Source: Nannochloropsis oceanica
Taxonomy: Eukaryota; Sar; Eustigmatophyceae; Eustigmatales; Monodopsidaceae
DNA length: 64,000 bases
Assembly: GCA_004519485.1 (NCBI GenBank)
Contig: CP038116.1
Coordinates: 744,001-808,000 of the forward strand
Direction of reading: 5' to 3'
Shown: positions 16,707 through 30,170 of the stretch, one piece after another
Position numbering within the stretch: position 1 is the first letter of the stretch
Layout of the letters: every line of letters begins with the position of its first letter
Program-made: the position numbers and the translations under genes
Notes under the pieces: model-generated
Databases searched by the model: none
Seen by the model: only the letters and a program-made list of their open reading frames with translations
Told to the model about the DNA's origin: nothing

Positions 16707-18006
16707 GGGGGCTCCCGCTCCTTCCCCTTCCCGTCCTTTTGTCTCCCGTCTGACCCCTCGCCAGCAGCAGCAGCGACCTTCATCCCCTTCCTCCTTCCAA
16801 CCCTCTCCTTCCTCCTCTACCATCGCTACCGCCGCCGCTGGTGCCGCTGGTGCCAGCAGCATCAGCAGCAGCAACAGTAGCAGCAGCAAGGCTTCGCGGA
16901 GGGAGGGAGGGAGGGAGGGCAGAAGGCCGTCAACGACCGCCTCGCCGACCCCCCCCTCTGCTCTCAAGGGACAAGCGCTCTTCCAGTCCCCCTTGGCGCC
17001 ACTCCTCCCAGGACGCGAGGTGAGGAAAGAGAATGCGAGGGAAGGAGGCCGAAACAGCTGAAGCAACGCACACAAATTACTCTATCGCACCTTGCTCTGC
17101 CCTTCTTACTCACATGTCACCCCTCTGCTCCCTCCCTTTCGATTTTCCCCCACAGAACTACTCGCCTTCCTCCATGCACAAGACCCCGCCGCCTCCCCCC
17201 CTCCCTGCCCCTACCCCTCCCTCCGTCCTCTCCTCGCGCCTCTCCTCTCATCCCTCATCCTCCACCACCACCACCCGCGGCATCCTGCGTCCCCGGGACC
17301 CCAACATTCTGCTCCCTTCAGCTTCTCGGGCTCAGGCTGGGCGGACCACGCCGGCCATTCAAAGGTAGGAAAGGAAGGAAAGAAAGGAGGAAGGGAAGGA
17401 GAGGGCTTAAGGGGGAAATAAGTGTGTAACTATCTGGTCTCTGTAACTATCTGATATCTCATACCACTCCCGTTCCCCCCACCCTCCATCCCTCCCTCAG
17501 TCCCTTCCTCGAAGCATACAAAGTCCGGCGGCAACGGCAACAGCAGGAGCAACAGCCACCGCCCTCTCCCTCCCTCCCTCCCTCCTACCAGCCCTACCTC
17601 CGCACCTCCCACGGTAGCAGCAGCGGCATCGGCGGCGTCAGTTGTAGCACAGGCAAGGACCGATGATGGGGAGGGAAGGAGGATGGGAAAGACAGAATAG
17701 CTTTCTTCAAGGCTGAATAAGCAAGAGTGAAGGCCTTCTTATGCCCTCATGGTCTCACGTTATCCTTTCCTCCCTCTCTTCATCCCTCCCTCTTCCCACT
17801 TGGCAGGCTACTCCTACCTTCCGCACGATAGCAGCAGCTTGCTCTCCCCTCCCTCCTCCTATCGACCCACTGTCAAAGGAGGGAAGGCACGAGGGACGGA
17901 GGGAGGGCTGAGAAGTCCGAACACATCGTTGATGTCGATGGCGACAACCGTGTCTGCCGCTTCGACGTCTCACCATTCCGTCTCGCGCTATGGCCGCCTG
18001 AGCTGA
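13669..18006 (+). CDS. NIMA-related (NEK-type) Ser/Thr protein kinase
   Basis: ATG at 13669 (MPAAKEDYDVLEVIGQG). The full kinase domain can be followed across many exons. It has the glycine loop GQGSFGKV, VLVWKEINYG with the ATP-site Lys, helix C VEKQRIADE, NILKDLRNPFIVRFYDH, hinge YIVMEYC followed by GGDL, the catalytic loop HRDIKPANVLL, the DFGLAKELDSDR magnesium loop, GTPYYMSPEL, DMWSVGCLL, and INAGKISRIPD. The DFG-LAK and GTPYYMSPE forms and the GGDL hinge are typical of NEK kinases. All catalytic residues are present, so it should be active. After the domain come charged coiled-coil exons (MRQVRAREEEVKQREATL), an acidic stretch (16245-16285), poly-Ala, and poly-Gln of about 30 residues (16615-16707). 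A long Ser/Pro-rich tail ends in SHHSVSRYGRLS. NEKs act in centrosome/basal-body, ciliary and mitotic control. Exon borders in the tail are less certain than in the kinase domain. Confidence 0.88.
16615..16707 (+). repeat. mixed CAG/CAA poly-Gln tract in the kinase tail
   Basis: A run of CAG units passes into a run of CAA units, all reading Gln in the kinase frame, about 30 residues. The block structure (all CAG, then all CAA) suggests two successive expansions. Confidence 0.92.
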
Positions 18007-19575
18007 GCGAGGGAGGGAAGGAGGGGGAGCTCGACAGTCTGCTCGGCGTGAACTTATCCTTTGTCTATATGTGGGGAGAGGGTGGGGGTTGCCCACTCAG
18101 GGGGCATCGTCGGGGGCTTGGACCATGCCATCAGCGTCGTCAACTGCTCGTCTCGCCCCTGCACAAGCACCAGGCTGAATTGAAGAGGACGGGCAAATAA
18201 ATAACACGTAAAGAGAGGAATGACATAAGACGAAGAGGAAGAAGAGAAACCGAAAAAGTCACAAAGACCAATACAAGCACAACCAACGTCATTGCGATGT
18301 TTCCCACTGCTGTAAGGGGCTGGCTTTATCCTCGATGTGAGCTTTCAAGCCTTTGTGCTTCTCACATCTGCTTGAATCCCACCCATCCTCCTGGTCCTCA
18401 CCATCGTGTTCGTGTCTCCCACATGAAGAAAGCATGGATGAAGGGCGGACTTGCCGGCTGGCAGGCAGATAAGCAAGCGAAAAGACCGTGTCGTATAAAA
18501 CTTGCTTCTTTAACTTTGGAGTTGCAACTTTCAATATCGTACCTCACCCCACTCAACCATTTCTTGGACCCGTTCCATCCTTTTTTCGTATTTATCTACC
18601 GTCCCTCTGACGCAGGAATTTTCTTCTCTCCCCCTCCACCCCTCATTATACTGCGTCCAAAGGCATGCCCCACTTCATTGTGGGAAAGACGGCACGGCCT
18701 GACTCGCTGAAGCCTCTATCCATGGGAAGCAGAGGGGCAACAACTTTTTGCGGCTGCTTTTGCTGACTTGCAATCGCAGTGCGGTGCATCCCTCTACAAC
18801 TATTGAATAGAGAAATTTCAAGGCAAGAAAAATAAAAAATTTAGATACAAGGAAACGATACGTCAAATTTACAGTGTGTCTGTCTGTGCTATGATTTTCA
18901 TTTTTTTTGTTTCCTTGTAGGATCTTTTTACTCCTTACCCCTCCTCTTTGACCCCACCGGCCTCAAAATAGGCCCCAAATGGTTGAAAAAATCTTTGGTG
19001 GTATGTGTGAAGATCGTAGAAACAATAAGGGCTTCTGCAACTCTGCGAGGCAATGCACACGCAGGGGCGAGCAGGGCAACGCTGAAGACGATAGGGTCCC
19101 GCGCGAAACGCATGGGATAAGACATGGAGGTCTGGAGAGATAAAAGGGATGGCATGTATATCCGCATTACCGATAAAATATTTGCGATGGAGATTGCGAG
19201 GGTGCTCAGGGAGCCTCTATTATCATTATTATTTTATTCCCGTCTGTCATTCGTTCATTCGTTGAAACCGTTTCACCCTTACACCCCATTATCAGCAATA
19301 TGAGGGGTTAACGCCACATGCGCCGCCATGCTTCGAGCAACAATATGGGCTTCCATTGCTGATTCGTCAAAAGATCATGATGGCCCTTTCCCCCTCAGCC
19401 ACCCACACCCCCACACACTCGCACAAAAGCACAGGGAATTTTCAGCCTACCAAGTCAACCGCCCGCTTTGGGTCCAGGCTTTATCGATCTACTGTGGTGA
19501 AACAACATGCTCTAAACTCTGCACTTTAAACTCTTAAAACGCCGTGTCATAAATCAACATTAACTCCAATTCCAG
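18007..19575. other. intergenic region between NEK kinase and LicD/EEP gene
   Basis: The first part is the kinase 3' flank and holds copy A of a diverged direct repeat (about 18200-18510). The remainder becomes progressively AT-richer, with T-runs at 18895-18915 and ATTATT stretches at 19220-19235, and leads into the promoter of the AT-rich gene at 19576. I see no coding exon. Confidence 0.55.
18200..18510 (+). repeat. diverged direct repeat, copy A
   Basis: It aligns by eye with 21900-22240. Shared landmarks in the same order are ATACAAGCACAA, CTG-TAAGGGGCTG against CCGTTGGGGGCTG, TCCTCGAT, TCAAGCCTTT, CATC-CATCC, CTCACC/CTTAACC, CGTG-TCGTCTCTCCCACAT, AAAGC, GGCAGGCAGA and AAA-GACCG. Identity looks roughly two thirds, with small gaps. 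It lies just 5' of the LicD/EEP gene. Confidence 0.65.
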
Positions 19576-21579
19576 ATGTACCCGTCATACTGTGCTATAT
19601 CGATTGCCTTGATATTACTGTGCCTTTGGTCCGTTTCTATTTTTCATCTAGACGGAGACCATGGGCCATTGTCCAGTTATGTCCAGCTTACCACCAATAA
19701 CGATGTCAATGACATTCCAGTGTCCGCGGTCACCTCAGCTGATGACACATCCTATGGAACACCAGTGGGCTTGCAGTCTTATAGAATCGAAGAAAACATG
19801 GCCAATGGAAGCGAAGAAACCATGGCAAAACTGCGGCCTGCGTTTCCTCTTCCAAAGGCTGACGGTGATGGTGAGCAGTTTCCACAATGGCTAAAGCATC
19901 TCTGTCCAGGCGTTGTGGATCACTTCCTTCGGTTTCCCTATTTCACCCACCACGTTGACGACCTACCGATAATGACATCCTCGACTGCTGCGCACTCAGT
20001 CTGTAGCATATACTTGGCAAATCAGATTGCGCACTCCGTTGATGCCCCCATCTATCTAAATGCGGGCTCTCACCTGGGTGCGATACTTCATGGGGGCCCG
20101 ATTCCATGGGATGATGACGTCGATATCCTCTTATCCTATGACAAAAAAGACGATTTTCTCGCGCAATGTGGCCGGGTTGCAAAGGAGTTCTCCTTCCCTG
20201 ATATAAGTATAAATTGTACGCAGGGTAACAATGCAATCAAATTCTTCATCAGCACGCCGGACTCCACGAGCACTCCCTTTCCGTGGCAGCATCCATTCGT
20301 AGATATATTCTTATTTGTCGCCAATAACACGCACCTATACGAGGTGACACCTGTCGGAAAAGTCCTTAGCCAGGTTTACCTTTTGACTGACTTTTTCCCT
20401 ACAGAATTGTTCTACTTTGGTGGAATATCTGTCATGGGTCCACGAGAGGTCATTTCTTTGAGACGATACAATCCTGAGACATGTATACTAGCTTCCTACA
20501 ACCATAAACAGGAGCGTTCAATGGAGTATTCGGGATCTACAACTCTTAATTGCGGTGAACTTGCAACGATATTCCCCTTCCGAAATAACCAGAATATTCT
20601 ATACAACGGACACGCTACAATGATACTTGAGAACTATAAGGGAAATGACGATGATTACAATGCTGCAAGCCAAACATGGAACATTTCTGCGACAATGCGC
20701 GACACGTGGCAATCTTTATCAGAAGCAAGCGGCCAACAATTGACCGACTCTATTGCCAACCTTAATGCCGTGCAAATTAACAATAACTTCTCGACATGTA
20801 GTGCTCATGCCAACATGACTGTAGTGGAATTTAATGCGGAACGTGGTCGTCAGTTGATGTCTGCTATCAAAATCATAGAAACATTGAACGCCGACGTTAT
20901 CATTTTAAATGAGATGGACATTGGTATGGCCCGATCAGATCAACAGCATACAGCCAGCCTCTTAGCTAGTTCCTTAGGCATGAACTACGCATGGGGTTTA
21001 GAGTTTATCGAGCTCACAAGAGGTACCAAAAAGGAACAACAAGATACCAACGGCTTGTACAACTTCCTCGGATTGCATGGAAATGCTATTTTATCAAAGT
21101 GTAAAATAGAGGACCCCATCATATTTCGTGAAAATATTGGGGACTATTTTTCAGACCAAAACACGTCAATTAATGCCAATGGCTACGAAAAGCGCTTAGG
21201 AGGAAGAATGGTGATGCTTGCCCGAATCCGAGATCCACGGAACAATACAATCGTTGTTGGTTCTACGCATAAGTGGGGAGGTGATGAAGCGGGCGTCAAG
21301 GCTTACATTGGCGATTCACAAGCTGTCATTGCTGGGGATCAGGACTGGAGCTTCTGTGACAGGGTTGGCCTTGTTCATGTCGACAGTAGAGACCATGCAA
21401 CTTGGCCCGCCTCGTGTGAAACACCCGGTACAGCTAGAGGCGATATAATTTGCAGCAACATGAAAGTAGCCCTGTCCGAAGCGACTAAACTACCCTGTGT
21501 GGTTGAATTCGGTAACAAAATACAACTCTCCGATCATGCGCTTACGACAGTCTCTCTTTATCATTCGGAAAAAGCATAA
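19576..21579 (+). CDS. membrane-anchored LicD-type transferase fused to an EEP-fold domain
   Basis: A single uninterrupted 667-codon frame, in contrast to the intron-rich neighbours and visibly AT-richer. Residues about 4-23 (YCAISIALILLCLWSVSIF) form one membrane span close to the N-terminus, so a type II Golgi/ER topology is likely. Several N-x-S/T sites occur. Residues about 155-330 carry the LicD/fukutin-like nucleotidyltransferase signature: LNAGSHLGAILHGG, IPWDDDVDILL, the downstream VDIFLF pair, and DFFPTELFYFGG. This family transfers phosphocholine or ribitol-phosphate-type groups to glycans. Residues about 415-660 look like an endonuclease/exonuclease/phosphatase fold: EFNAERGRQL, DVIILNEMDIG, GLHGNAILSK, STHKWGGDEAG, IAGDQDW and LSDHALTTVS. 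The usual GDxN is GDQD, while the Glu and the SDH triad partner remain. The two activities could build and trim the same phosphodiester on a glycan or lipid; that is inference. Confidence 0.82.
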   Translation: MYPSYCAISIALILLCLWSVSIFHLDGDHGPLSSYVQLTTNNDVNDIPVSAVTSADDTSYGTPVGLQSYRIEENMANGSEETMAKLRPAFPLPKADGDGEQFPQWLKHLCPGVVDHFLRFPYFTHHVDDLPIMTSSTAAHSVCSIYLANQIAHSVDAPIYLNAGSHLGAILHGGPIPWDDDVDILLSYDKKDDFLAQCGRVAKEFSFPDISINCTQGNNAIKFFISTPDSTSTPFPWQHPFVDIFLFVANNTHLYEVTPVGKVLSQVYLLTDFFPTELFYFGGISVMGPREVISLRRYNPETCILASYNHKQERSMEYSGSTTLNCGELATIFPFRNNQNILYNGHATMILENYKGNDDDYNAASQTWNISATMRDTWQSLSEASGQQLTDSIANLNAVQINNNFSTCSAHANMTVVEFNAERGRQLMSAIKIIETLNADVIILNEMDIGMARSDQQHTASLLASSLGMNYAWGLEFIELTRGTKKEQQDTNGLYNFLGLHGNAILSKCKIEDPIIFRENIGDYFSDQNTSINANGYEKRLGGRMVMLARIRDPRNNTIVVGSTHKWGGDEAGVKAYIGDSQAVIAGDQDWSFCDRVGLVHVDSRDHATWPASCETPGTARGDIICSNMKVALSEATKLPCVVEFGNKIQLSDHALTTVSLYHSEKA

Positions 21580-22431
21580 GGGGAATTCAATTTTTCATTA
21601 CCAGTCCAGGTCGACTCATCTTGGTGTTTGTACAAGGCCGAGGCGAGACGGAGATGACGATACTGGTGGCACTGTCTAGCTCCTGAGGACCCCTCACACA
21701 CAGGAACCCATGTCTTCCCTTCCCCGATCTTTTCCCCCCCACATAAATAAGTGATGAGGCTCACACCAAGCGGATTGTCGACCTAGTCTAGGTCCTAGAT
21801 ACTACTTTACACACTTGGCCCCTTTCGTTCTCTTCAACATGTATATAGATAGAGCTCATGTTTTCCACCGTGTGAAATGGATATAGGGGGACACGAATAA
21901 TAAGTCTAAATGACAGCAAGAGTGTGGCACGAAATAGAATGAAGAGAAGGAGGAGGAGAAATGGATAAAGTAAGAAAGTTAAACATACAGTCCATACAAG
22001 CACAATCGACTTCATCATGCTGTCTGTCAGTGCCGTTGGGGGCTGTCCTTTTCCTCGATCTCGGCTATCAAGCCTTTTTACTCCTCATAGCTATCTACAT
22101 CCCATCCCTCGTCCTAGTTCTTAACCTCGTGCTCGTCTCTCCCACATAGACAAAGCGTAAATGCAGGAAGAGCTGACTGACTACAAGCAGGGGCAGGCAG
22201 ACAGGCAGGCAAAACGACCGGCACTTTATAAGCTACTTACCCAGTTTATGGTCTGATTTCTTACTTGACATTCGGTCGACCCGTGTCGTTCTTTTACTTG
22301 CTTCGATTTCCCCTTTTGTAACTAGATCGACTCCATCACCTTTCTTTGAATCGCTTCTGTTTCCTATCTTCTTCCCCTCCTCCCTCCCTTCTTCTCCTCC
22401 TCCCTCCCTTCGTCTCATCCTCATGCATTGC
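21580..22431. other. convergent intergenic region
   Basis: This is the 3' flank of the LicD/EEP gene and of minus-strand SUV3. It holds copy B of the direct repeat (about 21900-22240) and an AT-rich stretch before it. I see no coding exon. Confidence 0.55.
21900..22240 (+). repeat. diverged direct repeat, copy B
   Basis: Partner of 18200-18510, same orientation, about 3.7 kb downstream. The pair brackets the intronless LicD/EEP gene. No terminal inverted repeats, target-site duplication or transposition gene are visible within or beside either copy. Confidence 0.65.
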
Positions 22432-28916: not shown

Positions 28917-29334
28917 TGCGAGATTGAAGGTGAAGAGCGTGGTGGTTGAGGAGCGCAACCTGGCTTTTCGTGGCACTAGGTGATGCACAGCGAAGGCAAT
29001 AACATGCGTGCCCAAAGTAGATGTTTATTTCTTGCTCGAGCCTGTATGTGCGCGAGTTATGGCGGGCATAAGTGTATATCTCTGAAGGATGTGATGATGA
29101 TTATGATGTAGAACAAACTAAAGTCACGGCCTGCGGCCAAGCCTTGCGCGGTAGGCAATCGAAGCAGGAGCGACATAAATGATCAAAAATGATATACGCA
29201 CACGTGCAGGCGCCGCCCTTTTCCAAGGATCGTATTTCTTACGCAGGATGGACCTGCAATTTTCACGGGTGGCCTGAATCATTTCATATTTTGCGGGTAT
29301 GTATGTTGCTATCGCTAGAACTCGAACAGCTCTG
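28917..29334. promoter_or_regulatory. short subtelomeric region carrying the SUV3 promoter
   Basis: Only about 420 bp separate the SUV3 start codon from the first telomere repeat, so the promoter and 5' UTR lie here. No subtelomeric satellite or gene family is present. Confidence 0.5.
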
Positions 29335-29507
29335 TTAGGGTTAGGGTTAGGGTTAGGGTTAGGGTTAGGGTTAGGGTTAGGGTTAGGGTTAGGGTTAGGG
29401 TTAGGGTTAGGGTTAGGGTTAGGGTTAGGGTTAGGGTTAGGGTTAGGGTTAGGGTTAGGGTTAGGGTTAGGGTTAGGGTTAGGGTTAGGGTTAGGGTTAG
29501 GGTTAGG
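29335..29507 (+). repeat. telomere, (TTAGGG)n, right end of the left sequence
   Basis: Perfect TTAGGG repeats, about 28 units, starting right after unique sequence and running to the N gap. The G-rich strand reads 5' to 3' towards the gap, which is the orientation of a right-hand chromosome end. Confidence 0.97.
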
Positions 29508-29607
29508 NNNNNNNNNNNNNNNNNNNNNNNNNNNNNNNNNNNNNNNNNNNNNNNNNNNNNNNNNNNNNNNNNNNNNNNNNNNNNNNNNNNNNNNNNNNNN
29601 NNNNNNN
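29508..29607. other. assembly gap of exactly 100 Ns
   Basis: One hundred N characters between two inward-facing telomere arrays. One hundred is a common placeholder for a gap of unknown size, so the two flanks are probably not physically adjacent at this distance. Confidence 0.97.
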
Positions 29608-29889
29608 CCTAACCCTAACCCTAACCCTAACCCTAACCCTAACCCTAACCCTAACCCTAACCCTAACCCTAACCCTAACCCTAACCCTAACCCTAACCCT
29701 AACCCTAACCCTAACCCTAACCCTAACCCTAACCCTAACCCTAACCCTAACCCTAACCCTAACCCTAACCCTAACCCTAACCCTAACCCTAACCCTAACC
29801 CTAACCCTAACCCTAACCCTAACCCTAACCCTAACCCTAACCCTAACCCTAACCCTAACCCTAACCCTAACCCTAACCCTAACCCTAAC
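29608..29889 (-). repeat. telomere, (CCCTAA)n, left end of the right sequence
   Basis: Perfect CCCTAA repeats, about 47 units, ending abruptly at unique sequence at 29890. This is the orientation of a left-hand chromosome end. Confidence 0.97.
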
Positions 29890-30170
29890 AGAAGTGTTTT
29901 GGGGAGAGTTGAACACAGCCCCTAGTTATGTACGACGACGAACAGTCGTCGCTCGATGGAAAGCATGCACGACTACGACGACTTCTAGTCGTCCTCGATG
30001 GAAAGCATGCACGACTATGACTAATCACATCACTATCGATTACGACTACTGTGGACTATCGTAATAGTCAGTCATTCAGGCCATTTTTGCAGAATAATCG
30101 TCTAACGTGTGCCTCAAGACCTCCACCGCCTCGACTTCCACACCCCACCCACGCGTAAGTGTCATGCACC
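29890..30170. repeat. subtelomeric region with a 42-bp repeat and small hairpins
   Basis: The unit containing CTCGATGGAAAGCATGCACG occurs at 29952 and again 42 bp later, with only small changes. Between and around the copies are perfect short hairpins: GACGAC/GTCGTC (29934-29950, 5-base loop) and GACGACT/AGTCGTC (29977-29993, 3-base loop). The region must also contain the promoter of the gene at 30171. Confidence 0.7.

Follow-up and report, generated by a model that had tools for sequence, protein, structure and literature searches.

One gene in the window (the whole 64,000-nucleotide stretch of DNA that was analysed) encodes, in a single anchored frame of 667 residues, both a LicD-type transferase domain and an EEP-fold domain. 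Profile, tblastn and fold searches agree on this architecture, which the sequence-only reading had proposed from motifs that were all found again (IPWDDDVDI at residues 176-184, NAERG at 420-424, NEMD at 445-448, GNAILS at 502-507, THKW at 564-567 and SDH at 652-654). As far as the sequences indicate, a LicD transferase and an EEP-fold domain in one protein is an unusual pairing, and the two halves would presumably serve a combined function. The gene and its main parts are:

19576..21579, + strand: complete coding sequence, 667 aa, with an ATG start and the stop codon TAA at 21577-21579
19585..19650, + strand: N-terminal hydrophobic segment (residues ~4-25), a presumed signal anchor, the topology being predicted
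19936..20535, + strand: LicD/FKRP-like catalytic domain, residues ~121-320
20101..20127, + strand: IPWDDDVDI, the presumed metal-binding DxDxD (D179, D181, D183), whose columns are invariant in alignments A5 and A6
20296..20310, + strand: FVDIF, the second LicD motif (D243), aligning with FVDIF or FVDLF of some viral LicD relatives
20803..21570, + strand: EEP-fold domain, residues ~410-665

Mean hydropathy in 19-residue windows exceeds 1.6 only for windows starting at residues 1-10, with a maximum of 2.33 at the window from residue 5, and the predicted model has a single N-terminal hydrophobic helix at residues ~5-21. The predicted protein has eight sequons for N-glycosylation and 14 cysteines, numbers that would be expected of, and do not prove, a lumenal type II membrane protein.

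Of the readings considered, we tentatively favour a phospho-alcohol transferase of the secretory pathway whose product would be trimmed or uncovered by a tethered EEP module. The protein would be a type II membrane protein of the secretory pathway, probably of the Golgi, with both modules presumably in the lumen. Its LicD/FKRP-like module would move a phospho-alcohol (phosphocholine, ribitol-phosphate, glycerol-phosphate or a similar group) from a putative CDP-linked donor to a putative glycan acceptor. The tethered EEP module, its D-x-D variant being taken as active, would next (in the presumed order of action) hydrolyse a phosphoester of the LicD product, for instance taking off either the alcohol alone, which would leave a phosphomonoester, or the entire group. 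Such a protein might combine in one chain what GlcNAc-phosphotransferase and uncovering enzyme do as a pair of enzymes; the proposed logic of adding a diester and then uncovering it would be that of GlcNAc-1-phosphotransferase and the uncovering enzyme (NAGPA) in the lysosomal pathway, although these are separate proteins with folds that differ from those of the algal modules. The narrower claim of a single-chain phosphoglycan editor, a Golgi protein that installs a CDP-derived phospho-alcohol and whose D-x-D EEP domain then uncovers or removes it, is quite unlikely to hold in full. A dead binding module and a small-diester hydrolase are close rivals to the trimming or uncovering reading. The fusion would bring add-and-trim glycan-phosphate editing within reach of tests on a single purifiable protein from a unicellular alga; if the EEP half is dead, what is left is a regular LicD enzyme carrying an unusual binding module.

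The assignment of the N-terminal half was borne out by Pfam: PF04991, the LicD family of bacterial phosphocholine transferases and viral relatives, matches with 40.7 bits against a cut-off of 22.6. This match covers only profile positions 7-38 of 227, strong LicD sequence similarity is confined to 32 residues, and the remainder of the domain rests on a predicted model built with 15 sequences. The LicD half was folded alone because it was left unresolved in the full-length model, which is poor there (10-residue blocks of 23-52 across residues 151-360). The DxDxD triad that marks LicD/FKRP proteins is present, and the predicted model has the nucleotidyltransferase-like catalytic fold of FKRP. 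Human FKRP, the ribitol-5-phosphate transferase of the Golgi (PDB 6kaj series), is ~17% identical to the LicD half; it has an N-terminal stem domain and is not known to carry an EEP domain. The LicD half would presumably catalyse phospho-alcohol transfer from a CDP donor.

Distant relatives of the LicD half were found in four phage records and in viral contigs, so that a viral origin of this half is conceivable. Viral LicD relatives have the IPWDDD-type motif in common with it, and several also share FVDIF and a C-terminal P...L...Y region. Five LicD proteins of viral contigs (L129, L130, L138, L140 and L156; 39-465 kb) have a C-terminal region like that of the algal LicD; in L129 the LicD domain lies at the end of a longer, 484-aa frame with other content. 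A further viral contig (L008, 59-2107) has a 682-aa frame in which an N-terminal part that by eye resembles a family 2 glycosyltransferase is followed by LicD.

The C-terminal half was required to have an EEP fold if there was to be a fusion at all, and fold searches with its predicted structure found one. Pfam PF03372 by itself stays below its cut-off of 24.5 (15.3 with the whole protein, 17.6 with the EEP half alone), yet tblastn matches this half to bacterial EEP genes at 2e-21 and the fold searches agree with it; three bacterial relatives clear the same cut-off (35.3, 37.8 and 53.8 bits). The best EEP matches in Foldseek are for the most part enzymes acting on nucleic acids, TDP2 and APE1 among them, so little about the substrate can be read from the fold. 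The bacterial mannosyl-6-phosphatase BT3783 (PDB 4c1r) is 14% identical to the EEP half and is not known to be fused to a transferase. A PHROGs search returned nothing significant. When the EEP half was aligned with 85 bacterial relatives, its active-site motifs compared as follows:

20833..20847, + strand: NAERG, with catalytic N420; N in 85/85 bacterial rows
20908..20919, + strand: NEMD, with the presumed metal ligand E446; E in 85/85 bacterial rows
21265..21276, + strand: THKW, with H565; H in 84/85 bacterial rows
21334..21348, + strand: GDQDW, in which catalytic D588 is retained and the N of D-x-N is changed to D590; N in 83/85 bacterial rows, a gap in 2
21529..21537, + strand: SDH, residues 652-654; D and H in 83/85 bacterial rows, gaps in the other 2

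The motifs of the near-complete EEP set claimed earlier are all present. The D-x-N reads D588-Q-D590 in the algal protein (the gaps in the D590 column belong to two short bacterial rows, L019 and L073). The change of D-x-N to D-x-D and the remodelling of the stretch behind H565 mean that the EEP half may lack activity: it has KWG after H565 where most bacterial rows have LES, the W of LDW is lost and the C-terminal third is shortened. These same changes speak for an alternative in which only the LicD half is catalytic, the EEP half being a dead module that binds a phosphorylated or phosphate-bearing acceptor. However, N420, E446, H565, D588, D623, D653 and H654 are all retained, each matching 83-85 of the 85 bacterial rows, the change from N to D is conservative, and dead EEP domains often lose catalytic positions. 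We regard a dead module as somewhat unlikely. Of the builder and trimmer proposed for this protein, both domains are there, but with its altered D-x-N the EEP half is only a candidate for an active trimmer.

The closest sequence relatives found for the EEP half come from bacterial Ugp-like operons: EEP proteins that are mostly 28-44% identical to it and most similar over its first 150-170 residues. Their hosts are mostly Alphaproteobacteria, with Myxococcota and others, and the bacterial proteins differ from the algal half in having a canonical D-x-N and a longer C-terminal third. A UgpC relative (E < 1e-50) lies upstream of the EEP gene, on the same strand and within 4 kb, in 69 of the 85 bacterial loci; the other 16 miss this criterion, some because of a contig end or because the transporter is elsewhere or on the other strand. 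A looser count over the same 85 loci (either side, 6.5 kb) gives UgpC in 76, a permease match in 71 and a binding-protein match in 65. Three annotated records have the order binding protein, permease, permease, UgpC, with the EEP gene adjoining, on the opposite strand in one of them. The transporter proteins tested score under the NCBIfam cut-offs (UgpB 370 and 325.1 vs 411; UgpA 296.6 vs 335), and the importer substrate is probably of the glycerol-3-phosphate type. Textbook ugp operons include the glycerophosphodiester phosphodiesterase UgpQ; this, together with the Ugp-like importer context, suggests small phosphodiesters as the ancestral substrates of the bacterial EEP family.

This operon context points to a role in phosphodiester use for a widespread EEP family. 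Relatives were found in 35 of 282 genomes in the phylum of a Myxococcota MAG and in 9 of 398 genomes in the phylum of a Rhodobacteraceae MAG. The four members tested matched no NCBIfam model, and among the open-licence papers listed on glycerophosphodiester phosphodiesterases, EEP and ugp none names it. For ten proteins scanned, taken mostly from loci lacking an importer, the neighbouring genes had no theme in common. Some loci have an extra gene between UgpC and EEP; in L018 (6710-7645) it encodes a xylose-isomerase-like TIM barrel with a weak match to CbiR, which is a cobamide-remodelling phosphodiesterase, and a similar gap between ugpC and EEP occurs in other loci too.

The bacterial neighbourhoods lend weight to another alternative, namely that the algal EEP half acts on a small diester (a glycerophosphodiester or a breakdown product of the donor) and not on a glycan, and so recycles or disposes of lumenal glycerophospho-alcohols. 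In its favour, the bacterial family sits beside Ugp-like importers in those 69 of 85 loci, at the operon position normally occupied by UgpQ. The likeness to UgpQ-type GDPD enzymes is limited to this operon position of the bacterial relatives; the GDPD domain PF03009 has no match in the algal protein at E up to 1. Moreover, one bacterial locus (L042) already has a GDPD gene adjoining its EEP gene, and the very long algal branch (see below) and the different C-terminal third suggest that the substrate may have changed. On balance this alternative appears unlikely.

Outside the alga, the fusion was not encountered. There was no LicD match beside the EEP gene in any of 85 bacterial loci (E up to 1e-4), and among ten whole genomes with an EEP gene, the LicD family appeared in one, as a weak match of 23.9 bits (G006, genome-wide). 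Likewise, no EEP match occurred in 49 viral LicD loci, some of which are the same contig more than once. The part of the open-licence literature available to us yielded no description of LicD in Nannochloropsis or of a LicD-EEP fusion, either of which may still be described elsewhere.

The gene had been taken for a recent arrival because of its base composition and lack of introns, both said to be unlike those of every neighbour. Its AT-richness is real: GC is 0.457 and GC3 0.466, as compared to a GC of 0.547-0.651 in the window's other open frames of at least 250 codons, except for the frame 29127-29921, which is telomere repeat plus N. However, it extends beyond the gene. The flanks have a GC of 0.485 and 0.466, and the AT-rich block spans ~18000-22350, a 4.3-kb island near a telomere array. 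A diverged direct repeat lies on either side of the gene:

18271..18488, + strand: upstream copy of a diverged direct repeat (~230 bp), 161/227 identical to 21994-22220
21994..22220, + strand: downstream copy, edging the AT-rich block

A whole-genome search with the upstream repeat found only itself and missed even the downstream copy, so its sensitivity is limited.

As for introns, the gene is indeed a single uninterrupted frame, but this is not distinctive. In the algal genome searched (29.26 Mb in 32 contigs, the gene being on C19), three other EEP matches cover profile positions 2-225, 1-225 and 1-205 of 225 in stop-free open frames of 573, 701 and 545 aa, respectively. Since these are near-complete in single frames, absent introns are no mark of foreignness. 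Neighbouring domains are partial within one frame (a kinase at 133-188 of 263 and a helicase domain at 40-87 of 110), which would fit spliced neighbours. One contig of the assembly, C32, has psaA/psaB-type genes, and its PsaB matches PDB chain 8zo9_b over the full length with no mismatch.

The telomere-type array starts at 29335, ~7.8 kb past the gene. Between 29335 and 29889, (TTAGGG)n is followed by exactly 100 N (29508-29607) and then by (CCCTAA)n, so that telomere arrays stand head-to-head within C19. Most likely, two chromosome ends were joined there in scaffolding, and the 34 kb at the right-hand end of the window may thus belong to another chromosome.

Recent acquisition of the gene from a bacterium or a virus, with no settled function as yet, would be consistent with the low GC, with the nearby telomere array, with there being only one intact copy in the genome and with the lack of any LicD match in the algal genome besides this gene. 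Nevertheless, we consider it very unlikely. The fusion was not seen in the 85 bacterial EEP loci or the 49 viral LicD loci, other EEP genes of the genome also lie in single frames, the flanks share the low GC, and searches with the EEP half turned up no near relative in bacteria or viruses. In a midpoint-rooted tree of 68 rows (the algal EEP half and 67 bacterial proteins, no eukaryotes) and 266 columns, the terminal branch of the EEP half is 2.74 substitutions per site as compared to a median of 0.21; the 67 rows were chosen from the 85 by a motif that requires the catalytic N, whereas the residue counts given above use all 85. With such a root and without eukaryotes, the tree can tell no more than that a close bacterial donor did not turn up. 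No near copy of the EEP half was present among 50,697 phage records or in viral contigs, where the scan prefilters by short peptide patterns and can miss relatives, and a plasmid search gave eight records with a highest identity of 44% over 36% of the query. Recent bacterial transfer was rejected as the leading view on account of the long branch and of the lack of a near copy in phages, viral contigs or plasmids. A viral origin of the EEP half was likewise set aside: BFVD matches to giant-virus EEP proteins reach only 10-14% identity and therefore show the fold only.

A decayed second copy on another contig also argues against recent arrival, since it implies that the gene has been in the genome for long enough to be duplicated and for one copy to decay. 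This copy (L005, G000:C3:84000-93000) covers roughly the final 55% of the gene, matching in stretches that fall within residues 294-658, with a DNA identity of 71-72% and in two pieces split by an insertion. Because it matches on both sides of the LicD/EEP junction, the fused gene predates the duplication. Differences from the intact gene are even over codon positions (79/343, 76/345 and 89/341; p 0.43), and 13 of 22 gaps are frame-breaking. That one copy stayed open while the other drifted is indirect evidence that selection may act on the intact copy. The region of the decayed copy has a GC of 0.40-0.48, so AT-rich regions exist elsewhere in the genome. Around the decayed copy lies a GC-rich repeat, partly palindromic and present several times, with inverted arms of 38-163 nt; one copy of this repeat sits inside the insertion that splits the decayed gene.
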